A stretch of DNA of 55,595 nt from a virus: the IMG/VR virus record IMGVR_UViG_3300004807_000027, positions 1 through 55,595 of that record; one strand, given 5' to 3'. The first letter of the stretch is position 1; the number at the start of each line of letters is the position of its first letter. The notes under the pieces were generated by a model. It saw nothing but the letters and a program-made list of their open reading frames with translations. It did not search any database and was not told the DNA's origin. The translations under genes and the position numbers were made by a program. Below are positions 5,363-55,595 of the stretch, in pieces.

Positions 5363-5363
5363 T

Positions 5364-6707: not shown

Positions 6708-6713
6708 TAGTAC

Positions 6714-8632: not shown

Positions 8633-8649
8633 CAGTGTAAATAATAACA

Positions 8650-9429: not shown

Positions 9430-9430
9430 T

Positions 9431-14883: not shown

Positions 14884-16477
14884 AAAGTTTATAGTCTCAA
14901 TTTATGGCTCCCACAACGCGGCTATAGCTTTTTACTACGACGGTAAAATAGACGTCTATGAAGTAGAAAGATACCTTAATTACAAGAACTCTGGACTTGC
15001 TCAATACAAGTTCGTGTGGCCTACTGATGTCTATATTGATCTTATTATTAAGGATTACAAACAACGTAATAATATTACAGAGGTACCCGACCTATTAATA
15101 TGGAACAGAACTGATTGCTTACATGATGACGTAAAGCGTATGTTTCATGAAGCAATTGAATCTAAAGAAAAGAAGATGGGGGCATGGCATCACCGGTCTC
15201 ATGCTTCTGGTACCTTCTATCAATCTCCGTTTAATAGTGCTTTAATAGTATCTTTTGACGGTGGCGGGGAAGATGGTTTCTTTAACATTTATACTGCTAC
15301 AAGAGCTGAAGGATGTGTGCCGGTATATGACACAAAAGTAGATCTTGGCTTTGCTTACATGATTATGGGCCAGTACATGAATGACATAAAAATGGAAGGT
15401 TCTTTAAGCGATGGTAATCTTGTGTATTCTGGCAAATTAATGGGGTTAACCGGGTATGGCACTGTTAGACAAGAGTGGATACCTGCTTTTAAAGAGTTTT
15501 ACTACAGTAAACCGGATGGTATTAACTATCAAGAAAAGCTTAAAGAATTGTCAGATAAAACTGGTTTGGCTTTTAATTTGAGTAATCGGTTTAAAGATAA
15601 ACTAGCTTATGATATTGCTGCTACTCATCAGCAAGCTTTTGAAGATATATTCTTTGAAATATTTGATCCTATAGCTAAGCAATACCCGGATTTACCTATT
15701 TGTACAACAGGCGGGTGTGCTCTTAACGTATTACTTAATACTAACATTAAAAAGCGTTATAACCGGGATATGTACGTGGCATCCAACTCTAATGACTGTG
15801 GTCAAGCAATAGGTATGTTGTTTGAGTATATTAAACCAGAATACCAAGTGGATGTATCAAGAAACGGTGTACCTATATTGGATTACGGTTCAATTGGAGA
15901 GTACTTGTATGACCATAGTAATGCATCTGATATTAGTAAGGTTACAATACCTGCTGCAGTGGATTTATTACGTAAAGGAAAAATTATCGGGGTAATGAGA
16001 GGCTTGAGTGAACACGGACCAAGAGCACTAGGCCATAGAAGTATTATATGCGATCCCGGTATAGAGAACATGAAAGACATACTCAATGCTAAAGTAAAAA
16101 ATAGAGAGTGGTATAGACCGTTTGCACCTGTATGTCCAGCAGATACAGCCAACACTTATTTTAATGTTATTGAAAATTCTCCTTATATGTCGTTTGCATT
16201 TGATGTGAGAGAAGAATGGAAAAGTAAGCTAGTATCTGTAACTCATATCGATGGTACAGCTCGAGTGCAAACACTTAAGCAAGAAGAAGATGAGTGGCTA
16301 TATGATCTATTAAAAGCCTTTGGTAAAGAGTCTGGTTATGAAGTACTACTTAATACTAGCTTTAATGTAGCAGGTAAACCTATATTAACTACAGTAAAAG
16401 ATGCCTTTAAAGTATATGACAATACAAAACTTGATTGTCTTATTATTGAAGATAATTTAATTGTAAAACGATTCTAA
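14876..16477 (+). CDS. Carbamoyltransferase (NodU/TobZ family)
   Basis: Encodes 533 residues from the ATG at 14876; an ATG at 14864 would add four residues. The N-terminal Kae1/ASKHA-like domain has HHRSHASGTFY (about residues 105-115), the His-rich metal site of this family, and SFDGGGEDGFF (about 126-136). The C-terminal YrdC-like part has GLSEHGPRALGHRSIICDP and a VKNREWYRPFAP block, both diagnostic. These enzymes use carbamoyl phosphate and ATP to carbamoylate hydroxyl groups of sugars such as Nod factors or aminoglycosides. In this operon the likely substrate is a sugar placed by the neighbouring transferases. The stop overlaps the next start as TAATG. Confidence 0.9.
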   Translation: MDKKFIVSIYGSHNAAIAFYYDGKIDVYEVERYLNYKNSGLAQYKFVWPTDVYIDLIIKDYKQRNNITEVPDLLIWNRTDCLHDDVKRMFHEAIESKEKKMGAWHHRSHASGTFYQSPFNSALIVSFDGGGEDGFFNIYTATRAEGCVPVYDTKVDLGFAYMIMGQYMNDIKMEGSLSDGNLVYSGKLMGLTGYGTVRQEWIPAFKEFYYSKPDGINYQEKLKELSDKTGLAFNLSNRFKDKLAYDIAATHQQAFEDIFFEIFDPIAKQYPDLPICTTGGCALNVLLNTNIKKRYNRDMYVASNSNDCGQAIGMLFEYIKPEYQVDVSRNGVPILDYGSIGEYLYDHSNASDISKVTIPAAVDLLRKGKIIGVMRGLSEHGPRALGHRSIICDPGIENMKDILNAKVKNREWYRPFAPVCPADTANTYFNVIENSPYMSFAFDVREEWKSKLVSVTHIDGTARVQTLKQEEDEWLYDLLKAFGKESGYEVLLNTSFNVAGKPILTTVKDAFKVYDNTKLDCLIIEDNLIVKRF

Positions 16478-18171
16478 TGAGCAATAATTTAACAGTTGTA
16501 ACAGGTATTTGGGACTTAAGAAGAGATCAAGCCGGAGAGGGCTTCAAAAGACCTTTCCAGCATTATATTGATAACTTTGTAAAGTTCTTACAGACCGATG
16601 TTAATATGGTCATTTATATTGAAAAACAGTATGAACATATTGTTTGGGAAAATAGAAGGGACCATAACACAAGAGTGTTCATTAAAGAGGTTGAAGAATT
16701 TAAAACCAAGTTTGACTTCTACGAACAAATACAAAAAATACGTAAAGATGAAAATTGGTTAAAACAAGCTGATTGGTTACGTAATAGTACTCAAGCAACA
16801 TTAGAGATGTATAACCCTATGGTTATGTCTAAAATGTTTATGGTACACGATGCTGTATGTTATAACCCTTTTAATACAGATTACTTTATATGGATAGATG
16901 GTGGTATAACTAACACCGTACATGCCGGTTATTTTACTCACGATAAAATTCTAAATAAAATACAACCGTATTTAAAGAGCTTTTTATTTTTATCCTTTCC
17001 TTATGAAGGCAATAGCGAAATACACGGTTTTGCTCGAGAAGGAATGAACAAGTTTGCAAAAGCTCAGGAAGTAAAATATGTATGTAGAGCTGGATTGTTT
17101 GGTGGGCATAAAGATGTAATTAAACATGCTAATGGTATGTACTATCACTTGTTACGGATGTCTCTTGAGCAAGGGTACATGGGTACAGAAGAAAGCATCT
17201 TTACTATTATGTCTTATCTAGAACCGGAAGTTTTTAATCGGTTTATGATAGAGGGTAATGGTTTAATTAACTACTTTGCAGAGCAACTTAAAAACGATAA
17301 CATTGTATTAGATAAACCCGAGATAACAGTAAAAACAAAAGAGAACAAAATAGTAGATCTTAACAAGACTATTACTGCTCTTTACATTATAACGTTTAAT
17401 GCCCCAGAGCAATTCCAAACCATAGTAGAAAGTTATTTAACTCAACCTGGCTTTATTACTAATACTAAAAACTATTTGTTAGATAATAGTACGGATTTGG
17501 AAACAACCCCTAGATACTTAGAGTTATGCGAAAAGTATAATTTTACACATATTAAGAAGGAAAACCTTGGTATTTGTGGTGGAAGACAGTTTATTGCAGA
17601 GCATTTCAAAGAAACCAATCACGATTTTTATATCTTTTTAGAAGATGATATGCTCTTAAAAGATAATTCTTTTGAACTATGTGATAACGGCTTCCAAGGT
17701 TATGTACCTAATTTATATAATAAAGTACATAAAATTATGATTGCTAACAATTATGACTTTATTAAGTTTAGCTTTACTGAATTTTACGGTAACAACTCAA
17801 AGCAATGGGCATGGTACAATGTACCTCAAAATCTTAGAGAAAAGTTTTGGCCAGAAAAACCAAACTTACCTACAGAAGGCTTAGATCCAGAATCTCCGGA
17901 AACCAAATTTAACAATATACGTAGTCTTGAAGGGCTGCCGTATGCAGATGGAGAGATATATTACTGCAACTGGCCTCAATTAGTTTCAAGAGAGGGCAAC
18001 CAAAAAATGTTCTTAGATACTACTTGGGTACGTCCATTTGAGCAAACATGGATGTCTCATATGTATCAATTAACAGTTAAAGGATTATTAAGGGGAGCGC
18101 TATTACTAGCCTCCCCTATTAATCATAACAGGTTTAAGTTTTACCCCGGGGATTTGAGGAAAGAGAGTTAA
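16477..18171 (+). CDS. HtrL/YibB-like domain fused to a GT2-like glycosyltransferase
   Basis: Encodes 564 residues with two parts. Residues about 1-275 resemble the HtrL/YibB family (TVVTGIWDLRRD, then YFIWIDGGITNTVH near 145-158, and CRAGLFGGHKD). Residues about 300-560 look like a GT-A fold transferase: ALYIITFNAPEQFQTIVES, KKENLGICGGRQFIAEH and the metal-binding FLEDDMLL. It is the last gene of the operon, joined by a TAATG overlap. A hairpin with a T-run follows at the stop codon. The fusion suggests that the HtrL-like and GT2-like activities act on the same acceptor. Neither donor nor acceptor can be told from sequence. Confidence 0.7.
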   Translation: MSNNLTVVTGIWDLRRDQAGEGFKRPFQHYIDNFVKFLQTDVNMVIYIEKQYEHIVWENRRDHNTRVFIKEVEEFKTKFDFYEQIQKIRKDENWLKQADWLRNSTQATLEMYNPMVMSKMFMVHDAVCYNPFNTDYFIWIDGGITNTVHAGYFTHDKILNKIQPYLKSFLFLSFPYEGNSEIHGFAREGMNKFAKAQEVKYVCRAGLFGGHKDVIKHANGMYYHLLRMSLEQGYMGTEESIFTIMSYLEPEVFNRFMIEGNGLINYFAEQLKNDNIVLDKPEITVKTKENKIVDLNKTITALYIITFNAPEQFQTIVESYLTQPGFITNTKNYLLDNSTDLETTPRYLELCEKYNFTHIKKENLGICGGRQFIAEHFKETNHDFYIFLEDDMLLKDNSFELCDNGFQGYVPNLYNKVHKIMIANNYDFIKFSFTEFYGNNSKQWAWYNVPQNLREKFWPEKPNLPTEGLDPESPETKFNNIRSLEGLPYADGEIYYCNWPQLVSREGNQKMFLDTTWVRPFEQTWMSHMYQLTVKGLLRGALLLASPINHNRFKFYPGDLRKES

Positions 18172-30467: not shown

Positions 30468-31127
30468 TTACTTAGTATCTCGCTCCGCAGAAGCAACAAA
30501 ATCATAAAATTCTTTACGAGTTTGTGGTTCGTTCATAAAATCCCCAGATAACTTAGAAGTAATCATAGCACAACCGTGATGCTTTACACCGCGATGGCAA
30601 GCGCAAGTATGGGTACATTTAAGAATAACTGCTACACCCTGATTGCCTGTGCATAGTTGATCAATAGCTTTATGTATCTGAACCGTTAATCCTTCTTGTA
30701 TTTGAGGACGACGAGCATAATGTTCTACAATACGATTAAGTTTAGAAAGACCAATAACCTGACCGTTTTTATCAGGTATGTAAGCTACATGAGCAACACC
30801 AGTAAAAGATAGGTGATGGTGCGAACACATAGATACAACAGGTATATTCATCTGACTAACAATACCATCATAACCATCTGATGGAAAAGTAGTAATCTTA
30901 GGCGGGCCTTCATAGCAACCTTTAATAAGGTCACATACATATGCTTTAGCTACACGACGAGGTGTATCAGCACTATTGACGTCATTACGCCAATCAATAC
31001 GTAGAGCATCTAGAAATGTTGAATACGCTTCTGCTGCTTTATCAATAATAGCTTTCCTATCTTCTTCTGTAGTAATCATACTACTATTAGCTGTAGGAAG
31101 TGTTGGGTGTTTTACTTCGTTTGACAT
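30468..31127 (-). CDS. folE: GTP cyclohydrolase I
   Basis: Encodes 219 residues from the ATG at 31127; an upstream ATG at 31193 lies inside the preceding gene, and its extra residues look like overlap. The zinc and catalytic segments are intact: [20 protein letters not shown] and [17 protein letters not shown], with QEGLTVQI between them. FolE converts GTP to dihydroneopterin triphosphate, the first step towards folates and 7-deazaguanines. The QueF, DpdN-like and DpdA-like genes further upstream in the same strand make the 7-deazaguanine role more likely than folate synthesis. QueD, QueE and QueC are not in this window. Confidence 0.92.
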
Positions 31128-31146
31128 ATTAAAAGATTTTACGGAC

Positions 31147-31476
31147 TTAAACTGTTCGCCCGTGGTATAACTCTGATTTGTTGTTGATTCCATATTTTAC
31201 TAAATAGCTTATTATAACCTCAATTGAGTCGGTTTTCAACTTAAAACGTTCAGGAATATATTGTCCTCCGTCATAAAATTCAAAAAAGGTTTCATCAAAT
31301 AATTCTTTGTGATTAACATAACAAGTACAAAATACAGATGCATTGCCTGGGTCAATCATTACTGTCCAGCTACGTGGATCCGCTTCACTATATGCATCAA
31401 AGATCTTATAGACCACGTAACCAGAATCTTTAAGTCTTTTTATGAAATAGCTTTGTGTTGTTATCTTGTTAGCCAT
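31147..31476 (-). CDS. Unknown protein (109 aa)
   Basis: Encodes 109 residues. The sequence has an alternating beta/alpha pattern: [20 protein letters not shown], then a strand [18 protein letters not shown] and a C-terminal helix. No family is recognised. Its ATG overlaps the clamp stop as TAATG, so translation follows that of the sliding clamp. It may be a small partner of the replication proteins. Confidence 0.6.
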
Positions 31477-38561: not shown

Positions 38562-39482
38562 TTATTGACGAGGAAACTTAAAGTAAGGTGCTTTTGCGTT
38601 AATAAGATACCTGTTAAGTAGTTTTTTATGGGATGCCCGTGTAGGAACAATATCCCATCCACCACGTCTTGCATAGTAGCAAGTTACCATAAGTTCTTCT
38701 GGTTGTAATAAGTCCCAAAGGCGTTTATAAGCAGCTTCACAAATTTCTTCATGGAAGTGACATTCATTACGGAATGAAACGATCCACTCTAATAAAGATT
38801 GCTCTGTAACTGCTTTATTACCTTTATAATAAATAAAAATATCCCCCGAATCTGGTTGCTTTGTAATCTTACAGTTAGAACGTAATAGAGTACTCATATA
38901 AAAGTGTTGCTCTGTTGATTCAGTTTCGTTAGCTACTAACAGATCAGCATTCTCGTTAAATACGGTAAACTTAATTTTCTCTGCACTTTTAATTTGTTCT
39001 AATGGACGCCAAATATTAGCACTATGATCTGAAAACCAGACTTTTCTATCTGTTTCAGTTTCAGGATCTGTAATTTGAGAATACAATTCTACTTTAACGT
39101 CAGTCTCTAATAATAAAGATAAGTCTTTAGAAGCTGTTTGCTTAATATTTTTAAGTACTTCTTTGGTATTCTTACCCATCTTCTGCATATTAAATGAGTT
39201 CCAGTATAGTTTCATTGACTTAGATTCTACAATGAAATCATTTTCAGCAGAATAAACTACTTTAGCCACGCAAGTAACAGGTAGACCACTATCTGTTAAT
39301 GCACTACATTCATAACCATTCCAAATGTCGTAACCTACAAAGGGTAAGAAACCATTCTTAAGATCAAGGTAAGTACGGTTACGTTGGCGCTCTTCTCGCA
39401 CCAAAATCTCTGGTGTATACGTGGTAGGAGAATCTACTCTCTGTCCAAGTACTTTGTCAATGTTATTAGTATTATAGCTCAT
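38562..39482 (-). CDS. queF: preQ0 reductase, long (bimodular) QueF
   Basis: Encodes 306 residues, the size of the two-module E. coli-type QueF. The motif ESKSMKLYWNSFN (86-98) is the family signature. The catalytic Cys204 lies in RSNCKITKQPDSGD with Asp211, and SFRNECHFHEE provides His244 and Glu245 for substrate binding. QueF reduces 7-cyano-7-deazaguanine (preQ0) to 7-aminomethyl-7-deazaguanine (preQ1) with NADPH. All key residues appear intact, so the enzyme is likely active. It overlaps the next upstream gene by 11 nt and is the last member of a coupled set with DpdN-like and DpdA-like genes. Confidence 0.92.
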   Translation of the reverse strand: MSYNTNNIDKVLGQRVDSPTTYTPEILVREERQRNRTYLDLKNGFLPFVGYDIWNGYECSALTDSGLPVTCVAKVVYSAENDFIVESKSMKLYWNSFNMQKMGKNTKEVLKNIKQTASKDLSLLLETDVKVELYSQITDPETETDRKVWFSDHSANIWRPLEQIKSAEKIKFTVFNENADLLVANETESTEQHFYMSTLLRSNCKITKQPDSGDIFIYYKGNKAVTEQSLLEWIVSFRNECHFHEEICEAAYKRLWDLLQPEELMVTCYYARRGGWDIVPTRASHKKLLNRYLINAKAPYFKFPRQ

Positions 39483-44254: not shown

Positions 44255-45427
44255 TCAAGAGAAATATAGACTACAATACTCATTAATATGGTCTTCTAAC
44301 CAATACTTGCATGCGTTTTTACGGGCAAGATCTGATTCAGTAAGATAGCGCTTACGATCAGACATAACTTTCTTAATAATTTCAATCATTTCTTCACCGG
44401 TATTAAACTTTAACGGTGCATCCTTATAAGGTTCTAAGTTTTGACATACACAAGGTAAGCCTAAAGCCCCGGCTTCAATATGTTTAATATTAGCTTTAGC
44501 AAGATTAAATTTATTATTTTGCAAAGGTGCAATAACAATATTGACGTTTAAAGCATTAAATGTAGAAGGGTAATCCCATATGCGAGTCCAACCTACATAT
44601 TCGATTTCTCCACTTCTGACGTGTTCAGCAAGTTCAGCAGGACATCCGCCCATTAGCACCCATTTAAACTGTTTAAGAGTCTTTTTAATAACATTAACAA
44701 TATCACCAAAGTCGTCTTTTACATCTTTCAAGCCAGCTATATTAAAATGCGTAGGGCTTCCAATATAACCTACTCGTGGTCGACGTTTGTTATCTTCGTA
44801 ATTATCCGAAATCTTACTCTTTACATAGAAACGGTCCATCCAGAACTTAGGCATGTAATTAGGCAATGTAATGCCCCTTACTCCAGACCTTTCTTCGTAG
44901 TATTTTGACATATAATCTGTAGGGGCAGTAATACCATCACAAAGCTGCATAATTTGTATTGCGGTTTTAGCAATGTTAGGATCTGTAAAGGCTTCACGTG
45001 CTTTGTTATAAACTGGAATGTCTTCAGCAAATATAACGTCATCAATTTCGTAATATATCTTAAAGTTATTAGTCTTATTAGATATATTTCTTAAAAACTG
45101 TACAAACTGTAACTGAGTAGGTGTAACTTGTCTTTGTATTCTTACACTTCTTACATCTTGATAGAAGTTTTCCTGCAAAATCATGAAGTTATTGTTATTA
45201 ATAATACCTAATTGATTACCATTAATAATAGCTTCAGGCCAGTGCATTCTCCAGAATCCGCAGCCTTGATGATCTGCAGCATAACTTACTGCACGTTTCA
45301 TATCTTGAGGTATACCTGTAGGCATGCTTACAGGTGTTGGTTGGCTGTTTGCTAACGGGCTACCTATTGTAGGTGCACCGAAAGGTAATTGAGGGGCTCC
45401 GAAGACTCCACCGTTATTAGACATCAT
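44255..45427 (-). CDS. GT-B fold glycosyltransferase (GT4-like)
   Basis: Encodes 390 residues. After a Pro/Gly-rich N-terminus (about 40 residues) comes CGFWRMHWPEAIING, a start seen in phage GT-B enzymes. RVGYIGSPTHFNIAGLKD begins the C-terminal Rossmann domain, and NIVIAPLQNNKFNLAKANIKHIEAGALGLPCVC is the donor-binding E-x7-E-type region in pieces. It lies between the polymerase and gp46 genes, a place where T4-like phages keep DNA-related genes, so DNA could be its acceptor. A virion glycan is an alternative. The start is one of two adjacent ATG codons inside the gp46 end. Confidence 0.7.
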   Translation of the reverse strand: MMSNNGGVFGAPQLPFGAPTIGSPLANSQPTPVSMPTGIPQDMKRAVSYAADHQGCGFWRMHWPEAIINGNQLGIINNNNFMILQENFYQDVRSVRIQRQVTPTQLQFVQFLRNISNKTNNFKIYYEIDDVIFAEDIPVYNKAREAFTDPNIAKTAIQIMQLCDGITAPTDYMSKYYEERSGVRGITLPNYMPKFWMDRFYVKSKISDNYEDNKRRPRVGYIGSPTHFNIAGLKDVKDDFGDIVNVIKKTLKQFKWVLMGGCPAELAEHVRSGEIEYVGWTRIWDYPSTFNALNVNIVIAPLQNNKFNLAKANIKHIEAGALGLPCVCQNLEPYKDAPLKFNTGEEMIEIIKKVMSDRKRYLTESDLARKNACKYWLEDHINEYCSLYFS

Positions 45428-47225
45428 AATTGGTTGTTCTAGTTGTTATACCGTTTCTTTTTTCAAGATAAACGATTTCCCCGCCAATACAATACTTTTT
45501 ACTTTCTTTGCGGTGTGAAATAATGTAAATTGATTCATTATAATTATCTACTCGATCTTTAAGAATATCAAGTACTAACTCAATGCCTTTCTCGTCTAAA
45601 GATGAGTCGAGAAGTTCGTCAAACATACTTAAATTAATCCAAACATCTGCTTGTGCTCTACGTATATCTTGAAATGTAAATAGCATTGCAAGGTCAATTG
45701 CTTTACGTTCAGCTCCAGAAAAATTAAAGTAGCTACACTCGCTACCTCTTTCATTAGTAATAGTTTCTTCAAAGTATTCATTAAATGTAACGATACTATT
45801 ACTTTCAAGCTTACGCAAATAAAAGGCTAGTCTTGTATTAAGAACCTGAAGTATTTTCTTTACGATAAACGACTTTACACCTTCTTCTGAAGCAATATAC
45901 TTAGCGGACTCAATAATATCGAGTTTTTCTTGAAAAGCCGTAATGTTCTTTTTTATTTCCTCTTGTCTTGCAGTAATGCCATCGATAATTTCTTGAAAAT
46001 TATTAGAATCATTATTAAGTTGATCTATATCTACAACAAGGGATTGTAACCACTCGTTTAATTGCTTTATACGGTTATTGTTAGATTCTACATCTTTACG
46101 ACGTATTAAAAAGTCGTTTAACTTAGTTTGAGTATCAGTAATAGACTTTTCTATCTTTAAAATACTGTCTCGAGCTTTATCTAAACGTGGGGCTTCCTTA
46201 GCTAGTGTTTCGTTAGCATCTGAAATGTACTTTTCGTACTCAGCTTTGTCTTTTTCGTATTCAATGTTAAGGTTACCACCACAGTGAGGACACTTACTGT
46301 CTGTTTTTTGTAATTTCTTAAGACGTTCTGTATAGAACTTAAGGTTAGCATTTGCTTCTGCAACACTCTTATTAATAGCATCAACTTTCTTATTAAAAGC
46401 TACTTTAGCGTCTTTCCAGTTCTTTAATTCTGTTTCAACCGCTTTTTGAGCTTCTACATCTACAGACTCTAAACTATTGAGTTTTTCTTTTATTACAACT
46501 AGCTCTTGTTCGTTATTCTTTTGACGTTGTAACAGTACTGCTAATCTCTTTTTCTTAGATTCTTCATGTGTATCTTTCTGTTTATTTGCTTCTAATAAAG
46601 AACGAGCTGTTTCATTTAGTTTTGAGTCTTCAATATCTAAACTCTTTTTTACTTCATTGAATTCGGTACGCGCTAACAAAAGCATATTACCAAACACCTC
46701 TAAACCTAAAATACCTTCAATAAATTTACGCTTTTCTACTTTCTTTTGAGCCATAAACGGTATAGTACTGTTTAAGGTCATAATAACAGTATTCTGAAAT
46801 ATTTCAGAAGTAGTACCTATTGTCTTTACAATAAGCTCCGTAGTTTGAGGTATACCAGAACGAGACATATCTACTCCGTTCTCGAAAAAGTAACACTTAG
46901 TAGGATTTATAGTTCTAATTATTTTGTAATTATTAACTGCATCTCCTGTATGAATATCAAAGTCTAGCTCTACTTCACATAAAGCTTCTGGGGCTTGATC
47001 ATTAACAATGTTTTCCTTCTTAAGCTCTCGTATAGAGTTACCGAACAACGCAAAATGCATTGCATCAGCAATAGTAGATTTACCTACTCCATTAGCTCTA
47101 TCAGCTTTATCATAGTTCTTACCGGTAATAATATTTAAACCGGGTTTATAATCAATCTCTACAGGCTTCTTGCCTATAGATAAGAAGTTAAAAGCCTTTA
47201 AGTGCTTAAAGTGTACATAACGCAT
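45417..47225 (-). CDS. Recombination nuclease ATPase subunit, gp46/SbcC-like
   Basis: Encodes 602 residues (T4 gp46: 560). The Walker A region is NIITGKNYDK...GVGKST with a short insertion (residues 31-51). Two long coiled-coil arms flank the zinc hook CPHCGG at about residue 310. The C-terminal part holds the ABC signature region FNFSGAERKAIDLAML and Walker B SMFDELLDSSLD. With gp47 it forms the end-resection nuclease that prepares recombination ends. It is separated from gp47 here by 7.2 kb of sugar genes, unlike in T4. Confidence 0.92.
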   Translation of the reverse strand: MRYVHFKHLKAFNFLSIGKKPVEIDYKPGLNIITGKNYDKADRANGVGKSTIADAMHFALFGNSIRELKKENIVNDQAPEALCEVELDFDIHTGDAVNNYKIIRTINPTKCYFFENGVDMSRSGIPQTTELIVKTIGTTSEIFQNTVIMTLNSTIPFMAQKKVEKRKFIEGILGLEVFGNMLLLARTEFNEVKKSLDIEDSKLNETARSLLEANKQKDTHEESKKKRLAVLLQRQKNNEQELVVIKEKLNSLESVDVEAQKAVETELKNWKDAKVAFNKKVDAINKSVAEANANLKFYTERLKKLQKTDSKCPHCGGNLNIEYEKDKAEYEKYISDANETLAKEAPRLDKARDSILKIEKSITDTQTKLNDFLIRRKDVESNNNRIKQLNEWLQSLVVDIDQLNNDSNNFQEIIDGITARQEEIKKNITAFQEKLDIIESAKYIASEEGVKSFIVKKILQVLNTRLAFYLRKLESNSIVTFNEYFEETITNERGSECSYFNFSGAERKAIDLAMLFTFQDIRRAQADVWINLSMFDELLDSSLDEKGIELVLDILKDRVDNYNESIYIISHRKESKKYCIGGEIVYLEKRNGITTRTTNYDV

Positions 47226-47245: not shown

Positions 47246-48004
47246 CTATACGGAAAGCCAGGACCAAGTACTGATATGTTGCATTAATTCCTCTTTGGAC
47301 ATATCAACTATCCTGTTAAATTCCGCTACATTCTTTGTGTAGTTAGGATTGGATTCGTTGCTATTAATGCTTCTACTATGATTTATATGATATAATGGAC
47401 CTTTTACTCTACCTACATTATAACCGAGTTTAACAAAACGACGAAACCTTTCCCAATCTTCTGCACCCCAGGAAATAAAGTTTTCATTTTCCATACCACC
47501 TTTAATAAACACTTTTTTGTTCCATAAAATAGCGCCACCCACAGAATTACTACCAAAATTAGGGTAATTTGCAGGATCTAATTCATCTACATTAAATGTA
47601 TTGTTTAAAGCTTCTCTTGGTATGTTAACAAACAAGCCGCCATAAGGATAAACAAAATCTACATCATTAGATCTTAAGATCTTTACCGCTTTTACTACTT
47701 GTTTAATAGGGAACAAAACATCACAATCATAATTGACTATGTAGTCTGTTCTAGATAAACGCGCCATTTCATTTAAGTAGCGAGTACGATGAAATAGCCC
47801 GTTACCTTCTTCATATATGTGAATAATGCTACTATCCTTAAAGTCTACTAACTTTTTAGGTCCGTTCTCGTAAATGATAATATTAGTATCAAAGTTAGTC
47901 TGTAAATATGATACAATATATTTTAAATTAAACGCTCTATCTTCACTATCAATTCTGATAGGTATATTAAATGTAACGTTTTTTAAATCTATTTTAGTTT
48001 GCAT
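47246..48004 (-). CDS. GT2-type glycosyltransferase (galactosyltransferase-like)
   Basis: Encodes 252 residues of the GT-A fold. FNIPIRIDSEDRAFNL opens the nucleotide-binding region, YIVNYDCDVLFP gives the DxD motif (Asp93 and Asp95), and FISWGAEDWERFRRF is the acceptor-side motif of the galactosyltransferase-type GT2 enzymes. The C-terminus is helical. It is the last gene of the sugar module before gp46, from which it is separated by 20 nt, and its start overlaps the upstream gene by 11 nt. Confidence 0.8.
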   Translation of the reverse strand: MQTKIDLKNVTFNIPIRIDSEDRAFNLKYIVSYLQTNFDTNIIIYENGPKKLVDFKDSSIIHIYEEGNGLFHRTRYLNEMARLSRTDYIVNYDCDVLFPIKQVVKAVKILRSNDVDFVYPYGGLFVNIPREALNNTFNVDELDPANYPNFGSNSVGGAILWNKKVFIKGGMENENFISWGAEDWERFRRFVKLGYNVGRVKGPLYHINHSRSINSNESNPNYTKNVAEFNRIVDMSKEELMQHISTWSWLSV

Positions 48005-48650
48005 ATTTCCAGTAAGTTGAAAGGGTGTGGTGTATGTTTCTATCTCTTAATAGAAACAAATCGCAAGGTATTTTTTTAATTGGTATACGTTTAGTTTTAA
48101 GCATATGAGTTATTAACTCTTCTCCAGATGTTATTTTAACACCAACTTTAAAATAATTAGTAATATTATCGTAAATCTCTCCGTATAACTTCATATTATT
48201 AGAAGTAGAAAAGTTTAACCAATCAGATATAACTAAAGGATTAGCACATACATTAGGTGAAAACACCCCTTCTGTAAGATTGTACGAAGCAGGATCAAGT
48301 CTAGATTCAAGACCGATATCAAACCGAGTACGTATAACTACATCATATTTGAAGTTATTAGCTAATTCATATTCTGCTAAAAGTCTTAAACTATCTTTAA
48401 TAGAATAAAACATACTAAAATGTATAAAAGCAGCTGGAGAGCATTCTTGTACTTCAGGTGGTACTACTTCTTTTTGAGGTTCTACAAGTATAGCTTTAGG
48501 TTCATACAAGTAACAATCCTTATTGAGAGGTCCTTCCCAAGTATGTATGAATATATCGTAATTGTTAAAGTCTACAAGATTTCTGCGAAGTGTTTCTAAA
48601 CCTTCAACCACAAAACGACTTTGACCTGAAAATGATATAGCTTTTCTCAT
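47994..48650 (-). CDS. Putative glycosyltransferase-like protein (218 aa)
   Basis: Encodes 218 residues. AISFSGQSRFVVEGLETLRRN at the N-terminus and YDVVIRTRFDIGLES (about residues 103-117) resemble small proteins found in capsule and glycan clusters with a GT-A-like core, where RTRxD takes the place of the metal motif. The call is by pattern and by location between a cupin gene and a GT2 gene. It overlaps both neighbours by 4 and 11 nt. Confidence 0.5.
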   Translation of the reverse strand: MRKAISFSGQSRFVVEGLETLRRNLVDFNNYDIFIHTWEGPLNKDCYLYEPKAILVEPQKEVVPPEVQECSPAAFIHFSMFYSIKDSLRLLAEYELANNFKYDVVIRTRFDIGLESRLDPASYNLTEGVFSPNVCANPLVISDWLNFSTSNNMKLYGEIYDNITNYFKVGVKITSGEELITHMLKTKRIPIKKIPCDLFLLRDRNIHHTLSTYWKYAN

Positions 48651-48967
48651 AAAAGTACTTTATCACTTGGTACTGAAGGCCATTTTACTACGATTAAATC
48701 TACATCGTTTATAATATAAACATCAGATACTTCATTAGGATGATATACAAACATATCTCCTGCTTTTAATATCTTATTATCAATCTTTAAAGCCCCGTTT
48801 ACAATGTATGTTAATTCCGTTACTATTTTATGAGTGTGTAACGGACCTTTATAACCAGCTACATGATGGTGATGAGCCACTTCAAAGAAAGGGTTTTTAA
48901 ATACAGCTGGATTAAAATCTCCAATAAACCAACCGTTGTTGAAATCTTTTATGTTATAAGTGTCCAT
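48647..48967 (-). CDS. Cupin-domain protein
   Basis: Encodes 106 residues that are one cupin barrel. GPLHTHKIVTELTYIVNG provides the first cupin motif with two His and one Glu as metal ligands, and LKAGDMFVYHPNEVSDV the second. HHHHV just before may also bind metal. Small single cupins in glycan clusters can be sugar epimerases, isomerases or regulators. It overlaps the fusion-enzyme gene by 14 nt and the next gene by 4 nt, so it belongs to the sugar module. Confidence 0.8.
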   Translation of the reverse strand: MDTYNIKDFNNGWFIGDFNPAVFKNPFFEVAHHHHVAGYKGPLHTHKIVTELTYIVNGALKIDNKILKAGDMFVYHPNEVSDVYIINDVDLIVVKWPSVPSDKVLL

Positions 48968-50126
48968 AGCTACTTTCTATCTTTTGTATACGAGCACAAT
49001 GTCTACCGCCTTCAAACGTAGTGCGTTTAAATATACTAATATATTCTACAAGTTTATCTACATTAGTAATACGTGTGGGTATAGAGAAAAAGTTACAGCA
49101 ATTATGTTTAATTGAGTTTTCAGCACTTATTTCATCGTATATTAATGCAGACCTTATACCATCTGTTTTATTAGCTGCAATATTAACAGCTTGCCCGGTA
49201 TAACAAAAGCCAATACCATGAGTACAAGTACCGTTTTTAATAAACGTTATTGCTTGAGATATATAATCAAACTGATCACAGTCTTTATTTGTAAAGCACC
49301 CTAAATCAATGTATTCATAATTAAAAGCACTAAGAATGGTCTTACACCTTTCCTTAAGTTCAAAACCGCTGTGATCACTAGCAAGTGCTATTTTACCTTT
49401 ACCAAAATGGTTTAGCACTCGAGTAGTAAAGAATTTATATTCTTCAGGTGTACCCATAATAAACATCTCGTCAACGTCTTTTATAGTAACCTTTAAACCG
49501 TCTTCTATCATTAAATTGTAAAGAGGAGTAATATAGAACTCATTACGGGTACGCAGATTCTTTTTTATCATTTTTTCTGCATACTTTACAAATACCTTAC
49601 CTGTTTTAAACCCGTATACCCCAACGCATGCATTATTGCTGACTACTTCTTTTTCTGCAGTTAATAATGCATAGTTGTTTGAAGTACCGTCAGTTTTTAC
49701 GTAACTGTAAGCAGGGTTATTGCTTTTAAATGTTAATACATTACCGTCTTCACTAAGATCAAAAGGCTTAAAAATAGGTTTAAAGTGTACGTCTACAGTA
49801 TATATAAAAAGCGGTAAATTATTATTAATGTGCTGCTTAGCTAATAAACAAGTAGAAACACTACCGTCTGTTACTCTATCAATAACTACTATTTGTATAT
49901 CTCTACCGAATTTCTTTCGAAATATTTCATCTACTCCAAAATTATTAATATGATCTTGTCGTAAACAAAATATTAAGTTACATTCAGATGTATCAATAGA
50001 ACTCAATGCCCAGTCAATTAAGTGCTTATCATAAGCAGTAATCATGTACTTTGGTACAACAAATCCTTCATCAACAAAGCGTTGACCACGACCAGCAAGA
50101 GGTACTAAAAGGTTATACTTTTTCAT
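48954..50126 (-). CDS. Fusion: sugar-phosphate nucleotidyltransferase + RpiB/LacAB-type isomerase
   Basis: Encodes 390 residues in two domains. Residues 1-240 are a nucleotidyltransferase: LLVPLAGRGQRFVDEG (5-20), VPKYMI with the conserved Pro-Lys, and IYTVDVHFKP for the metal site. Residues 245-370 are an RpiB/LacAB-type sugar-phosphate isomerase: IALASDHSGFELKE (246-259), then GIGFCYTGQAVNIAANK with Cys308 at the place of the catalytic cysteine of RpiB, and SIKHNCCNFFSIPTRI. I know of no standard enzyme with this order. It could isomerise a sugar phosphate and later activate it as a nucleotide sugar, with the kinase and phosphatase encoded just upstream doing the middle steps. Confidence 0.82.
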   Translation of the reverse strand: MKKYNLLVPLAGRGQRFVDEGFVVPKYMITAYDKHLIDWALSSIDTSECNLIFCLRQDHINNFGVDEIFRKKFGRDIQIVVIDRVTDGSVSTCLLAKQHINNNLPLFIYTVDVHFKPIFKPFDLSEDGNVLTFKSNNPAYSYVKTDGTSNNYALLTAEKEVVSNNACVGVYGFKTGKVFVKYAEKMIKKNLRTRNEFYITPLYNLMIEDGLKVTIKDVDEMFIMGTPEEYKFFTTRVLNHFGKGKIALASDHSGFELKERCKTILSAFNYEYIDLGCFTNKDCDQFDYISQAITFIKNGTCTHGIGFCYTGQAVNIAANKTDGIRSALIYDEISAENSIKHNCCNFFSIPTRITNVDKLVEYISIFKRTTFEGGRHCARIQKIESSYGHL

Positions 50127-50796
50127 TTTTGAAGTGTTTGGTTAACTCATTATGAGCGTTTTGTATTACCTTAGGAAGGTCTCTTGTACTATCAAGTAAT
50201 CCTGCTAATATATATGCGGCAAATTTGTCTCCAGCTCCAAGTACATTAATGTCTGGAACAAGCTCTGCTTCAAAGTAGTATTTCGTACCGCTTTTACTGT
50301 ATAAAATGCTGCCACTTGAGCTGTGTTGCAGTACATTACCTCTTACTGACTTGCAAAGGCTTGATATATTAAGATGATGTGAATCCTCATCTGATATTAG
50401 TAGAAGATCTATATAATCTAAGCTAGAATCATATACATTTAAAGGTGTACCGTTGCAAGTATCAGCTACATTAATGCCGTCTAGTTTTGAAATAAAACTT
50501 CTATCGTGCAACTCATTTAAATACATTATATGATTAATCTTACTAGAATGTATAAAGGGTGATTGAGTTTTTAAAGACAAACGGGATATACTCGTGCGTT
50601 TACATTGTTTAACATCAACCATTATCAATGACTCTCCTATATCAGTAGGTTCTACTTTAACCTTAAAATGAGGATTGATTGTTTTAAGCTGATTCCAAAC
50701 ATTACCTATACATCCCGCAGAAAATCTGTTTTTAAAATCTTCGTATATGTTGTCATAGCTTAGATGCCCGTAAAGTGTTATATCAAAATTTTTCAT
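50113..50796 (-). CDS. PfkB-family sugar kinase
   Basis: Encodes 227 residues, short for the family (usually about 300). The C-terminal signature INVLGAGDKFAAYILAG has the GAGD anion hole with the catalytic Asp190, and the N-terminal part (TLYGHLSYDNIYEDF, SAGCIGNVWNQL) follows ribokinase-type order. It phosphorylates a sugar or sugar phosphate using ATP. Next to an isomerase/nucleotidyltransferase fusion and a phosphatase, the likely product is a sugar bisphosphate, as HldE makes in the ADP-heptose pathway. It overlaps both neighbours by 14 nt. Confidence 0.78.
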   Translation of the reverse strand: MKNFDITLYGHLSYDNIYEDFKNRFSAGCIGNVWNQLKTINPHFKVKVEPTDIGESLIMVDVKQCKRTSISRLSLKTQSPFIHSSKINHIMYLNELHDRSFISKLDGINVADTCNGTPLNVYDSSLDYIDLLLISDEDSHHLNISSLCKSVRGNVLQHSSSGSILYSKSGTKYYFEAELVPDINVLGAGDKFAAYILAGLLDSTRDLPKVIQNAHNELTKHFKNEKV

Positions 50797-51304
50797 TACG
50801 GTCCCATTTAATTAAAACATCCACGGTTGGCTCAAAAACCATACCTTTTAATAAAAAATACTCAAATAGTTTAACAATTACTCCTTCTCCGCCTTTAACT
50901 TCGAGGTCAATTGCAACTTTCTTAACGCTATTGGGAGAATCTGAAGGGCAAAAACTATACCCTACTTGATTCATTATGTTAATATCAAAGACATCATCTC
51001 CAACATATACCATGTCTAAGCTTTCTACATTATAACGAGTCTCAAATTTTGGTATGTAGGTTGCTTTGTCTACCATACCGCCACTATCTCTATTGTTAAA
51101 GAAATCTATGTTTCTGTTATTTGCTACTGCTTCATTAACGTTAGTATCTCCAGAAAGAAACACTATATCCCAGCCATTAGCTTTAAATTGCTTAATAGCT
51201 GTAAAATCCTTATCATTAAAGGTTTTGTATATGCCTTTACCGGTATTATCGTAATACTTTTTACCGTCAGTTAGTACACCATCAACGTCTAAGACTATTA
51301 ACAT
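50783..51304 (-). CDS. HAD phosphatase, KdsC-like
   Basis: Encodes 173 residues from the ATG at 51304 (MLIVLDVDGVLTDGKKYY); the frame is open further upstream but only with hydrophobic overlap sequence. Asp6 and Asp8 in LDVDGVLTDG are the HAD nucleophile and acid, VFLSGDTN is motif II, and MVYVGDDVFDINIM holds the metal-binding acids. Size and order match KdsC-type C0 HAD phosphatases, which free KDO or similar sugars from phosphate. Here the substrate is probably the bisphosphate made by the PfkB-type kinase. It overlaps the GDPD-like gene by 23 nt. Confidence 0.85.
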   Translation of the reverse strand: MLIVLDVDGVLTDGKKYYDNTGKGIYKTFNDKDFTAIKQFKANGWDIVFLSGDTNVNEAVANNRNIDFFNNRDSGGMVDKATYIPKFETRYNVESLDMVYVGDDVFDINIMNQVGYSFCPSDSPNSVKKVAIDLEVKGGEGVIVKLFEYFLLKGMVFEPTVDVLIKWDRNEKF

Positions 51305-51746
51305 AATCTTTATAATAATATATATTATCAGAACAAATTCCAGCAAAATCTAATAAATGTTCAGATGCAAATGTCCATCTCGGATCCTCTGGCATTACAC
51401 AGATAGCATCTTTATAAGCTTTTTTATATGTCGGGCTTAACCATATAAAACCAGCGGTTGTTACTACAAAATCGTCTTTATCTATACTAAAACAGTTAAC
51501 CGCATAATGCTTAATTTGATTTAAAGCTTCTATATTTTTACAATGTAGCCAAAGGTTATCTTGTGCAATAAACTCAAACTCTACATTATACTGAGGGGCA
51601 TCATGCCCAAGATAAAAATCTTCATCTATGTACCACAAATCTATTTCCACATTAAACCCATGATCTAAACAGTATTTTATTTGATCGGGGTGGTTCTCTT
51701 TATCGGATTTACCATTAAGATTACCTCTATGTGAAATATAACGCAT
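51282..51746 (-). CDS. GDPD-like (glycerophosphodiester phosphodiesterase-like) protein
   Basis: Encodes 154 residues. ISHRGNLNG (residues 4-12), ENHPDQIKYCLDHGFNVEID and LGHDAPQY match the first three blocks of the GDPD TIM-barrel family: the HRG motif, the ExD-type pair and the GHD motif. It is much shorter than a normal GDPD (about 250-300 residues), but similar short forms occur in sugar clusters. It may hydrolyse a phosphodiester or have lost this activity. Its start overlaps the upstream stop by 1 nt. Confidence 0.65.
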   Translation of the reverse strand: MRYISHRGNLNGKSDKENHPDQIKYCLDHGFNVEIDLWYIDEDFYLGHDAPQYNVEFEFIAQDNLWLHCKNIEALNQIKHYAVNCFSIDKDDFVVTTAGFIWLSPTYKKAYKDAICVMPEDPRWTFASEHLLDFAGICSDNIYYYKDYVNSLRR

Positions 51747-52060
51747 TATTTAAAGTTTTTTCTGTCATCTAATTCTGGTTTGTTCTTTTGCGTCCACATA
51801 GCACCCATAATATTCCATACTACAGCTGATAAATGGTCTTCGTCTTCTTCTCCTGCCCACCATTTAAGTAGATGGCGTTGTGCACTATCATAAAATACAG
51901 AAGTAGTCATGCCGTGCTTCCAGTTATCAAACCCGTACTTTTCACCACCTTTACGGTAATGATCCATCACCTTAATAAGTTCTTGTGTAGGTATTAAACT
52001 CATTCTTGGTTTACCTACATCTGTATCTCTTTGGGCTCCTGTATCAAACTGTCTTTTCAT
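51746..52060 (-). CDS. dATP/dGTP diphosphohydrolase-like protein (DUF5664 type)
   Basis: Encodes 104 residues. FDTGAQRDTDVGKPRMSLIP followed by GGEKYGFDNWKHG, SAQRHLLKWWAGEEDEDH and LSAVVWNIMGAM is the pattern of the phage dATP/dGTP diphosphohydrolase N-terminal family, related to MazZ-type enzymes with an all-alpha NTP pyrophosphatase fold. It could trim the dGTP or dATP pool or act on another nucleotide. It sits within the sugar module and overlaps its neighbours by 17 and 1 nt. The exact substrate is unknown. Confidence 0.75.
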   Translation of the reverse strand: MKRQFDTGAQRDTDVGKPRMSLIPTQELIKVMDHYRKGGEKYGFDNWKHGMTTSVFYDSAQRHLLKWWAGEEDEDHLSAVVWNIMGAMWTQKNKPELDDRKNFK

Positions 52061-52871
52061 TTTTATTTAAAATATTGTTAAAGATCCAATCTTCGGATAA
52101 AATATAGTTTTGTGCAAGTTTAAAATTCTCTTCTATAGCAGCTTTTTTGCTATTATAAAAGTCTGGTGTACAAGTTTTAAGTTTATCCTTTAAATCATAC
52201 ATATCATTAAATATAACAAAACCATCAATATTAAAAAACTTCTCTATAGATGGGCACCCCCAATAAATCGGAATTGTGCCAGTCATTAAACAATCTATAA
52301 GCTTTTCTGTAAAATAAAAATCCTTCTTACAGTTTTCAATAGCAAAATGAAACCTATAATCTTTAAGTCCCTCAATTTTATTCATTGAGTGTATTATAAA
52401 TTGTTTGTAACTCGGACCAAAAGCATCAATATTCTTACCGGATGCATGTATAATTTGATGTCTTAATTGATGTCCAGGTAATTGATTTTTATTAGATGCA
52501 ATAATAGAAAACATTTTACTTTTTTCATATATTTGCCTTAATTCTACTGGAATCCAGCATCCACCTACAGGATACCATTTAGCATTAGGTAAACTTAAAT
52601 ACTCTTTATCGTGAGTCCATATCTGTTTGTACCTATGGGGGTTATTCTTTACATATTCATAAGCAAACGGGTGTATACCTTGAGGTTCTAATAACCATGC
52701 TATATTACCGTTTTCTAATTGGTAGTCTGTACATATTACGTCTACACCAGGAGGGGCGTCTGACCGATTCCAAATAACATGTTTTGCAATACTAACCGGT
52801 GGTGTAGGGTTATTACTGAATATACAATGTGCAAAATTACTATCTTTAATATAGAGTTCTATTTTATTCAT
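52044..52871 (-). CDS. GT10-type (alpha-1,3-fucosyltransferase-like) glycosyltransferase
   Basis: Encodes 275 residues from the ATG at 52871, which overlaps the upstream stop as ATGA; an ATG at 52883 is in frame but less fitting. The diagnostic GT10 block is FAIENCKKDFYFTEKLID followed by CLMTGTIPIYWGCP. FSIIASNKNQLPGHQLRH fits the region before it. GT10 enzymes transfer fucose from GDP-fucose to GlcNAc-type acceptors. The gene is next to a GT11-type gene, so two fucose-type transfers may be made on the same glycan. Confidence 0.82.
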   Translation of the reverse strand: MNKIELYIKDSNFAHCIFSNNPTPPVSIAKHVIWNRSDAPPGVDVICTDYQLENGNIAWLLEPQGIHPFAYEYVKNNPHRYKQIWTHDKEYLSLPNAKWYPVGGCWIPVELRQIYEKSKMFSIIASNKNQLPGHQLRHQIIHASGKNIDAFGPSYKQFIIHSMNKIEGLKDYRFHFAIENCKKDFYFTEKLIDCLMTGTIPIYWGCPSIEKFFNIDGFVIFNDMYDLKDKLKTCTPDFYNSKKAAIEENFKLAQNYILSEDWIFNNILNKNEKTV

Positions 52872-53650
52872 TTTTGTATCCATCCTTCTACTACTAAGTC
52901 TTTACCATCAGAGGGACCTTTTGAACCAAACCAAAGCTTAGGCATAACAATTACTTTATCAGAATTGTTATTAAGCCAGGCTGCCCACCAAGAAAATGTA
53001 GAATTTGTAATAATATTATTTTTACAAAGTGATATACCTATAAAGTCGTCTATTTGAGTTCTACCTTGTAGAAATAAAACCTTTTTACCGGTACGATTAA
53101 ATAAATCTTTATTTTGTTTACACCAAGGTATATCATCAGAGAATACAATGTAGGTTTTTACTTCTGCGCGTTCTTCTATTTCTTTTTGTGCAGAAAACCA
53201 ATAATCTTGTGGTTGTTGAGGGTGAATATTGGGATAGTTTAAATAATCTCCGCGCCGCACATGTATAGAGCAAGTAGTAGATAAATCTATTTGATTTAAT
53301 ACGTTTTTTACTTCATCTACTAAAGTAGAATTAAATTGAAATACGTCTCTTATTTTATCTTCTACTTTATTAAAGTACTTATCACTCTGAAAATACCCAT
53401 CTAAATAAACAAATGTATTGACCGGTAACTCTACAGGGTTATAATCAAAGCTCTTTTCTTTAACTATAACAGACGGTCCCGGTGCTAAACCTGGTAATTT
53501 ATTAGCAAAATACGTATTGTTCTTCCAGTTAGAAAACCCGTAACGCAAATTATGATCCATTGCTATACCAATAGTGCTAGCAATTAAAAATAGCTGATTA
53601 CCTAAACCATGTCCCTGAGATTTTAATAGACCTATGTGAGATACTTGCAT
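52868..53650 (-). CDS. GT11-type (alpha-1,2-fucosyltransferase-like) glycosyltransferase
   Basis: Encodes 260 residues. The three GT11 motifs are all visible: GHGLGNQLFLIAST near the N-terminus, CSIHVRRGDYLNYP in the middle (the HxRRGD donor motif) and TNSTFSWWAAWLN near the C-terminus. GT11 enzymes add fucose in alpha-1,2 linkage from GDP-fucose. No GDP-fucose synthesis genes are in this window, so the donor would come from the host, from other phage genes, or be another sugar. The stop overlaps the GT10-type start; the GT2 gene lies 1 nt upstream. Confidence 0.88.
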   Translation of the reverse strand: MQVSHIGLLKSQGHGLGNQLFLIASTIGIAMDHNLRYGFSNWKNNTYFANKLPGLAPGPSVIVKEKSFDYNPVELPVNTFVYLDGYFQSDKYFNKVEDKIRDVFQFNSTLVDEVKNVLNQIDLSTTCSIHVRRGDYLNYPNIHPQQPQDYWFSAQKEIEERAEVKTYIVFSDDIPWCKQNKDLFNRTGKKVLFLQGRTQIDDFIGISLCKNNIITNSTFSWWAAWLNNNSDKVIVMPKLWFGSKGPSDGKDLVVEGWIQK

Positions 53651-53651
53651 G

Positions 53652-54467
53652 TTATTTGTTTAGGTTAATTACATTTTTAGTATATATTGTTTTCAAGGCA
53701 CTTAACACCTTTTCTAAAGGAGTATCAGTATTTTCTACAGCAGATTTGCCGTGTACCTTTCTGTAGTAATTAGCCCCGTCTATCATGTTCTTAGTCCATT
53801 TCTCAGTATGTGTTATAGAACTGTTTTGTATTGAACCGGGTATCTCTTTAAGCATTTCATCACTGCCTTCTACGTCTGGAAACCACCAAAAAGCTGGCAT
53901 ATAACCACCTTTAATAATTCTTTGACATAATTCTACATGTTCCCATGCATTTTTAAAATACGGATCGTGATAACCAACACTCTCTATAACACTCGGGTGA
54001 AAATAAGAGAATGCCCCAACGCAATGCTGGTTAAGAGCAACCTTTATACCTTTTGGATATTCTACTATATATCTTGGTCTAGGTGATTTATAATCTGGTG
54101 TTCTATTAGCAGGTCCGTGATAACCAAAGTTTAAATGAAATACACCAGAACCTAAAGCTGTATCAATGTATTTTTGCCAAACATCTGGAGTCTGAACTAA
54201 AATGTCATTTTCAATAAGAAATATATGGTCACATTTCCTATTCATAAGAACATTCATTGCTCTATTTTTAGCAACACCAACCGTTTGATAGGGTGGTCTA
54301 TTATTCATTATTTCAATACCTTCTGGTAATGTACCGTCAGGAATCTTAATACCATCATTAATAAGAATAATATCTGTTAATGGGCCTTTGTTTGCAAGTA
54401 AACTCTGTACACATTGTTTTGTGTATTCTAATCTATCGCATGCTATAACGGCTACTCCTATTTTCAT
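53652..54467 (-). CDS. GT2-family glycosyltransferase
   Basis: Encodes 271 residues of the GT-A fold. KIGVAVIACDRLEYTKQCVQ opens the nucleotide-binding domain, HIFLIENDILVQ has the DxD-like END motif (about residues 82-93), and the acceptor region includes FKNAWEHVELCQRI. The C-terminus is helical. It is the first gene of the sugar module downstream of gp47, with a 4-nt overlap with the gp47-like stop. Confidence 0.8.
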   Translation of the reverse strand: MKIGVAVIACDRLEYTKQCVQSLLANKGPLTDIILINDGIKIPDGTLPEGIEIMNNRPPYQTVGVAKNRAMNVLMNRKCDHIFLIENDILVQTPDVWQKYIDTALGSGVFHLNFGYHGPANRTPDYKSPRPRYIVEYPKGIKVALNQHCVGAFSYFHPSVIESVGYHDPYFKNAWEHVELCQRIIKGGYMPAFWWFPDVEGSDEMLKEIPGSIQNSSITHTEKWTKNMIDGANYYRKVHGKSAVENTDTPLEKVLSALKTIYTKNVINLNK

Positions 54468-55519
54468 GTTAAAGAATGGGCTTTATGATATAAATCGTTA
54501 ATGTAAGACTTTACTTTATCTTTATGCTTAATTTCAAGTAAATCAATGAATTCTGATATAGAATTTTCTACACTTATATTAAAGTCTTTTGTGTTTGCTT
54601 CTTCTATATTGAGTTTAGAGTTTTCATTATAATCATATTCAATAGCAAATTCAACCGGCTTGATAGAATTGAGCTTTTTTACCATCTTATCTACGACTTC
54701 CGGTTCTAATGGTGTATCGATGTAGAACTTAATTATATTTCCTTTAATAAGAGTCTTAAGTTCCTCTACAGTGTACTTACCACCTGCAATCTCTTTGTAC
54801 GTTATCTTATTATGTTGTGGGGATATAGTATTTTCAATAAAATCATACCCTAACGTATCAAGATCTAGTATGTATAGTCCCTTTTTAGTATTGTAATCTC
54901 CCCAGTCTTGTTGATATGGTGAACCAGCATAAAGAATAGTACGGTCTTCATATTTGCGTTCTTCTCTATGATGAAAATGACCTGAAACAGTGAGTTTTGC
55001 TCTACTAGTAAGATCGGTTGTTTTTAAACCGTTAGTACACACTTTGAAAGCATTCATCTTAAAACTATTAATTTCAAAATGCCCTACGATTAAATCGCAT
55101 ACGGGTACTTCTTCTATTTCTTGCCCCCACGGACAGAAAGCTATTTTCGTTTTCTTATAATCAAATACAAACAACCTATCAATAACAGTAATATTAGTCC
55201 ATCCTTTGAGAATAGAAACAGAATTAACATTAGAATTATCTTTATAATAAGCATCATGATTGCCAACAGTAATGATAATATTAAAGTCGATAAACTCCCT
55301 AAAAATATCATTAACAATATGAAGAGTATTAACAGCAATATCATTTCTATCATGGAATATATCTCCTGGTATAATTATATCTTTTATATTACGTTGTCTA
55401 AATTGATCTGCAGCCCACTTAGCATGATCCATCGCAATCTTATGCCATGTCTCGCTATTACGATGTACACCATAATGCGGGTCAGAAAAAATACCTACTT
55501 TAGAATTATGAATTTTCAT
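54464..55519 (-). CDS. Recombination nuclease subunit, gp47/SbcD/Mre11-like
   Basis: Encodes 351 residues from the ATG at 55519, close to T4 gp47 (339); an in-frame start at 55549 is less likely as it lies within the upstream gene. The metallophosphoesterase motifs are in order: GIFSDPHYG, IIIPGDIFHDR, ITVGNHDAYY, DLIVGHFEINS and VSGHFHHREE. The nuclease works with gp46 to resect DNA ends for recombination-dependent replication. Seven kilobases of sugar genes follow before gp46. Confidence 0.92.
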   Translation of the reverse strand: MKIHNSKVGIFSDPHYGVHRNSETWHKIAMDHAKWAADQFRQRNIKDIIIPGDIFHDRNDIAVNTLHIVNDIFREFIDFNIIITVGNHDAYYKDNSNVNSVSILKGWTNITVIDRLFVFDYKKTKIAFCPWGQEIEEVPVCDLIVGHFEINSFKMNAFKVCTNGLKTTDLTSRAKLTVSGHFHHREERKYEDRTILYAGSPYQQDWGDYNTKKGLYILDLDTLGYDFIENTISPQHNKITYKEIAGGKYTVEELKTLIKGNIIKFYIDTPLEPEVVDKMVKKLNSIKPVEFAIEYDYNENSKLNIEEANTKDFNISVENSISEFIDLLEIKHKDKVKSYINDLYHKAHSLT

Positions 55520-55595
55520 TATTACGTTTATTTGGATTAACAGGGTCATCTACACCTACCTGTGGTCCAATTACACTATAAACTTCTTCTTGATA
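55506..55595 (-). CDS. C-terminal end of an unknown protein (partial)
   Basis: The minus strand is open from the right edge of the window to a TAA at 55508-55506. The 29 visible residues (YQEEVYSVIGPQVGVDDP, then NPNKRNNENS) do not identify a family. The stop overlaps the gp47-like start by 14 nt, in the style of the operon. In T4, gp55 lies near gp47, but nothing here proves that identity. Confidence 0.55.
   Translation of the reverse strand, partial: YQEEVYSVIGPQVGVDDPVNPNKRNNENS

Follow-up and report, generated by a model that had tools for sequence, protein, structure and literature searches.

A phage cassette with a nucleotidyltransferase–RpiB fusion that probably makes a nucleotide-activated sugar

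The window, the whole stretch of DNA analysed, comprises all 55,595 bases of a virus record; its replication genes are T4-like (UvsX, gp32-like and a DnaB-like helicase), and its DNA polymerase shares only ~31% identity with known phages. Three adjacent genes run from 51304 to 48954 on its minus strand in the order HAD phosphatase, kinase, and nucleotidyltransferase (NTase)–RpiB fusion, each overlapping the next by 14 nt (Table 1); the coordinates given for these overlapping genes in a preliminary description are exact. The trio lies in a glycan island (47246–54467) of putative glycosyltransferases, the cassette and a dATP/dGTP diphosphohydrolase-like gene, flanked by an SbcC/gp46-like gene (45417–47225) and, by eye, a gp47/SbcD-like gene (54464–55549). 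A dGTP_diPhyd_N protein (E = 3e-23; MazZ-like family) is encoded within the island at 51746–52060.

Table 1 Genes and domains of the cassette in the window, with related loci in other viral records
Feature	Record	Positions	Strand	Length	Remark
GDPD-like (glycerophosphodiesterase-like) protein	window	51282-51746	-	154 aa	
KdsC-type (HAD, no cap) phosphatase, P0003	window	50783-51304	-	173 aa	
Short PfkB-fold sugar kinase, P0002	window	50113-50796	-	227 aa	
NTase-RpiB fusion, entire gene	window	48954-50126	-	390 aa	
NTase domain, P0001	window	49398-50126	-		fusion residues 1-243; 4evw match, sequence and fold
RpiB/LacAB isomerase domain	window	48957-49397	-		fusion residues 244-390; PF02502
Cupin-like protein	window	48647-48967	-	106 aa	downstream of fusion, 14-nt overlap
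DUF7796/WavE-like putative glycosyltransferase	window	47994-48650	-	218 aa	DUF7796 E = 3e-6, slightly below cut-off
Split transketolase adjoining fusion	L114	6388-7498			
Split transketolase adjoining fusion	L166	6131-7259			
NTase-family fusion locus	L024 (S-SKS1)	5998-7425			
NTase-family fusion locus	L022 (S-CAM9)	5347-6732			
NTase-family fusion locus	L018 (Bellamy)	12223-13797			
NTase-family fusion locus	L023 (S-SM2)	7995-9563			

The C-terminal half of the fusion (residues 246–383) matches Pfam LacAB_rpiB with E = 5.6e-34 (117.5 bits against a cut-off of 24.7) and exceeds the TIGR00689 cut-off (109.1 versus 88.3 bits), which places it among the RpiB/LacAB isomerases, as first proposed, and not in a non-isomerase family. 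RpiB matches score higher than those to LacA or LacB, and the score against the ribose-5-phosphate-specific RpiB equivalog, TIGR01120, falls below its cut-off (95.5 versus 138.65 bits). The proposed two-domain architecture is borne out by an AlphaFold model (pLDDT 92.3, pTM 0.86), in which Foldseek matches the NTase half to 4evw and the RpiB half to 3he8, the latter with a TM-score of 0.95 by target. Cys308, His341, Arg375 and Arg379, which we take to be the catalytic Cys and His and the phosphate-binding Arg residues, are unchanged in an alignment of 32 relatives. The domain thus has fold and catalytic residues in common with known RpiB/LacAB isomerases, from which it differs in its fused NTase, its sub-equivalog score and a C-R/C/Y-TG-Q loop in place of the canonical CGTG; the ANK motif is gone in some members. 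The loop was dropped as a unique feature, as one RpiB of Bacteroidota also has an Asn near the loop site.

Family-profile matches to the NTase half are weak and generic. Its closest structure is 4evw, an uncharacterised Vibrio cholerae protein (E = 2.8e-18 by sequence and 4.6e-19 by fold), and the domain adopts the RmlA fold. Lys26, Asp112 and the Glu158–Lys159 pair, unchanged in 32 aligned relatives, are presumably the sugar-1-phosphate residues of RmlA-type NTases, Glu158–Lys159 being their sugar-1-phosphate 'EK' pair. The second metal-binding Asp (RmlA D226) is replaced by Ile, Val or Leu within an xGTPxE motif in every aligned row; 4evw also lacks it. Arg16 is Asn in two members. Over residues 3–381, the fusion matches PHROG_3980 (E = 1.7e-73), which is the same family, carries no function or pathway, and is unlinked to the kinase and phosphatase.

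The kinase is unusually short and lacks one segment of normal PfkB proteins. It scores below the gathering threshold of PF00294 (15.7 versus 25.8 bits; PfkB E = 0.0097); a longer homologue in contig L166 lies above the PfkB cut-off at 53.4 bits. In Foldseek, the AlphaFold model (pLDDT 91.7) matches PfkB kinases (best E = 8e-12). Asp15, Gly28/Asn32 and the GxGD motif (Gly187, Gly189 and Asp190) are unchanged in 31 aligned relatives, and we take Asp15 to be the PfkB substrate Asp and Asp190 the catalytic Asp of GxGD. The phosphatase is, by sequence, a relative of KdsC/YrbI short of certified membership (TIGR01670, E = 4e-24, 85.3 bits against a curated cut-off of 106.95). It also matches the KDN-9-phosphatase family NF058599 (E = 3e-23), its PDB matches are KdsC and KDN-9-P phosphatases, and its score against the GmhB-type profile PRK08942 is well under the cut-off (16.6 versus 178 bits). 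Its catalytic motifs (Asp6, Asp8, Lys80, Asp103, Asp104 and Asp107) are unchanged among the aligned HAD relatives. For RpiB, HAD, PfkB and NTase alike, we assume the residue roles to be those of the respective families. Catalytic residues are largely kept in all four parts, as expected of the active enzymes proposed earlier; the RmlA D226 equivalent and some ANK motifs are missing.

Scans of IMG/VR reveal relatives of the fusion in 230 contigs, of the HAD phosphatase in 223 and of the kinase in 118. The complete trio is present at 71 of the 75 best fusion loci, 72 of the 80 best HAD loci and 75 of the 80 best kinase loci, and the loci without it are mostly cut at a contig end. Two cultured Synechococcus phages carry it as well (Bellamy gp204–206 and SynMITS9220M01 190–192). 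Gene order is kept in nearly every relative found. Where dS is unsaturated, dN/dS is 0.03–0.06 for the fusion, 0.13–0.19 for the kinase and 0.06–0.16 for the phosphatase, so that all three genes are under purifying selection. This ordered recurrence, together with dN/dS ratios of 0.03–0.19, indicates that the trio is more than a chance arrangement. Gene structure, folds, conserved residues, co-inheritance and selection are all direct results of computation. There are also genuine exceptions: L267 and L295 encode the phosphatase, kinase and NTase, with no RpiB in the locus or elsewhere in the examined records, L198 lacks the phosphatase, and L268 has the phosphatase alone. At L013 (8001–9166), the fusion is broken near residue 188 into ORFs of 186 and 202 aa, by a frameshift or an assembly error.

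The cassette exceeds three genes. Among 82 trio loci, a cupin-like protein recurs in 66, a GDPD-like protein in 65 and a DUF7796/WavE-like transferase in 51, so that there are usually six genes. The GDPD-like protein is homologous to a 'glycerophosphoryl diester phosphodiesterase' of DSL-LC03 (E = 5e-64). Sulfotransferase-family genes occur near the cassette in three contigs (L198:6310–6939, L104:4370–4996 and L154:5926–6537), which suggests a sulfated glycan.

Beyond phages, the 106-aa cupin matches bacterial cupins of NTase clusters (E = 1e-23 to 1e-30), and a profile of the 218-aa protein hits, with E = 2.6e-28, the protein that occupies the WavE position in a cluster from Bacteroidota. These bacterial NTase–cupin–WavE–HAD–GDPD surface-polysaccharide clusters, found on plasmids and in Bacteroidota, share related NTase, cupin and WavE-type proteins with the phage cassette and a weakly related GDPD-like protein. 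They differ in that PfkB, KdsC-type HAD and fused RpiB were undetected in them by phage-derived profiles, and some have two NTases. In the plasmid collection, NTase relatives were found and the kinase had no match; of 396 Bacteroidota genomes, its profile matched a single one, a MAG that the scan for the fusion had also returned. That scan, for a bacterial source, covered 84,980 genomes with two exact peptide patterns, which distant bacterial versions could escape, and returned two MAG contigs only, one of them with the length and gene coordinates of an IMG/VR record (L041/L112, 15,998 bp). The domain pair, whose occurrence elsewhere had been raised at the outset, is widespread among viral contigs and, by these two patterns, rare in the genomes scanned. 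The comparison with the polysaccharide clusters suggests that phages may have rebuilt such an NTase–cupin–GDPD–WavE cluster.

In the ADP- and GDP-manno-heptose routes, an isomerase, an anomeric kinase, a terminal phosphatase and an NTase act in turn (PMC10948575; PMC10680097). The phage trio would share these four activities and their logical order (GmhA, HldE or HddA, GmhB, HldE or HddC), with RpiB instead of the SIS-fold GmhA, a KdsC-type instead of a GmhB-type HAD, a short divergent kinase, and an NTase fused to the isomerase. Folds, residues and co-inheritance support this parallel, which the preliminary description had drawn; we infer each activity, the step order, substrate, nucleotide and acceptor. 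The further claim that the phage route is built from different protein families is not supported in that form, as the kinase and NTase share superfamilies with the heptose routes (we take the PfkB fold to be that of the HldE kinase domain and the RmlA fold that of HddC); only the isomerase has another fold, and the phosphatase belongs to another HAD subfamily.

A literature search for the combination of RpiB, NTase, PfkB and KdsC found no paper describing it, in keeping with the novelty first claimed. The claim is narrowed by the existing PHROG family and by type II phosphomannose isomerase/GDP-mannose pyrophosphorylase, which has an NTase and an isomerase on one chain (PMC9602691). As is proposed for the phage fusion, this enzyme unites on one polypeptide the steps that open and close a nucleotide-sugar route, and it differs in lacking RpiB. 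Its isomerase is a cupin-type phosphomannose isomerase, and the middle step of its route is a phosphomannomutase rather than a kinase and phosphatase.

Taken together, the trio is probably an operon of putative enzymes that makes a nucleotide-activated sugar from a sugar phosphate of central metabolism, most likely ribulose-5-phosphate. The RpiB domain would convert the ketose phosphate to an aldose phosphate, the short PfkB kinase would phosphorylate the anomeric carbon to give a 1,5- (or 1,n-) bisphosphate, the KdsC-type phosphatase would take off the terminal phosphate, and the N-terminal NTase would couple the resulting sugar-1-phosphate to a nucleotide, so that the fusion may hold the first and last steps. 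To relocate a phosphate from the sugar end to the anomeric carbon, a kinase and a phosphatase are required, as the heptose routes illustrate, and with an isomerase before them and an NTase after them an NDP-sugar is the parsimonious product. The DUF7796/WavE-like transferase may use this product on a phage or host-surface glycan. The earlier idea that the phage makes its own nucleotide sugar for the transferases around it fits the glycosyltransferase surroundings, and its substrate and product are predictions. The missing D226 equivalent, the odd RpiB loop, the members without the ANK motif or with Asn for NTase Arg16, a kinase that is perhaps too short and the loci without phosphatase or RpiB count against the route. 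If it is real, T4-like aquatic phages own a multi-step path to an activated sugar that is unlike the heptose and mannose builds.

Several clues favour a pentose-phosphate sugar, possibly ribose, as the substrate. One is RpiB. Another is a transketolase split into two genes, one for the thiamine-binding and one for the pyrimidine-binding half, which directly follow the fusion in most loci of one subclade. S-SKS1 encodes a fusion of a related NTase with RibB (E = 5e-65), an enzyme that consumes ribulose-5-phosphate, and SynMITS9220M01 encodes zwf and gnd ~6–9 kb upstream of the trio. The loss of RpiB in two contigs is expected if a host ribose-5-phosphate isomerase can cover the step. On these grounds, we favour a pentose over a hexose or a heptose. 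Tentatively, the product could be an NDP-pentose (e.g., NDP-ribose) formed from ribulose-5-phosphate by a route undescribed in cells, with the transketolase and RibB variants leading to other activated C4–C7 sugars. The same NTase family is fused in other cyanophages to RibB, an HAD_2 phosphatase or a second NTase, and these fusions form a mix-and-match set of sugar-activation proteins.

The same four-step logic could instead serve a hexose or heptose (of the allose or galactose type, or a C7 sugar made by transketolase) and yield an NDP-hexose or NDP-heptose. RpiB/LacAB enzymes also isomerise allose-6-phosphate/allulose-6-phosphate and galactose-6-phosphate/tagatose-6-phosphate, and both the split transketolase and the differences in kinase and RpiB loop between subclades would fit such substrates. 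This is nevertheless doubtful, given that RpiB matches outscore LacA/LacB and that host rescue of the isomerase step suits ribose-5-phosphate better.

It is unlikely that the NTase acts away from the anomeric carbon and attaches its nucleotide at the terminal phosphate of ketose or alditol phosphates, the chemistry seen in CDP-6-fructose and CDP-ribitol, while the kinase and phosphatase tune pools or serve another branch. Direct activation of a non-anomeric phosphate is possible for NTases of this broad type, and Campylobacter jejuni HS5.18 forms CDP-6-fructose straight from fructose-6-phosphate (PMC10918830). The related NTase–RibB fusion, in which the RibB product has a terminal phosphate only, and the absent second Asp, which suggests an atypical NTase site, are consistent with this chemistry. 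However, almost all loci keep the kinase and phosphatase that relocation of a phosphate to C1 requires, the module contains no conserved reductase across the 82 trio loci, and Glu158–Lys159 is retained.

An earlier study took viral rpiB from cyanophage scaffolds to boost the synthesis of nucleotides (PMC4022391). That these are ordinary pentose-phosphate auxiliary genes, with RpiB feeding ribose-5-phosphate to nucleotide synthesis beside unrelated neighbours, is very improbable here: the RpiB sits in a glycosyltransferase island with the kinase and phosphatase kept alongside, and among the 80 best viral RpiB loci of one motif-based scan, which was biased toward the loop sequence of the phages, 70 encode fusions to a sugar NTase and 9 are stand-alone. 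The nucleotide-synthesis reading of viral rpiB thus merits a retest, and if the NDP-pentose reading is true, many viral 'rpiB' auxiliary genes are glycan genes rather than genes of nucleotide metabolism. Not every cyanophage RpiB is part of a fusion, since the RpiB matches in Ssp-JY38 and Yong-L2-223 are accompanied by no match to an NTase. A Kdo- or sialic-like route, in which a 3-deoxy-ulosonic acid would be the substrate of the KdsC-type phosphatase and the NTase, agrees with the best HAD family matches (KdsC and KDN-9-phosphatase) but is hardly credible, since the cassette has no conserved KdsA/NeuB-type synthase or KdsB/NeuA-type NTase and leaves the kinase and RpiB with no obvious role; it was dropped along with a tagatose (LacABCD) reading, as the cassette has neither a synthase nor an aldolase that is conserved among the 82 trio loci.

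Elsewhere in the window, positions 14864–18171 encode a Nol-like carbamoyltransferase followed by a 564-aa protein that is 42% identical to a protein of Xanthomonas phage XacN1. A GTP cyclohydrolase I gene lies at 30468–31193 (Pfam E = 9e-48) and a second, matching a GTP cyclohydrolase-like PHROG, at 38562–39482; with these two genes, 7-deazaguanine modification of the DNA is possible.
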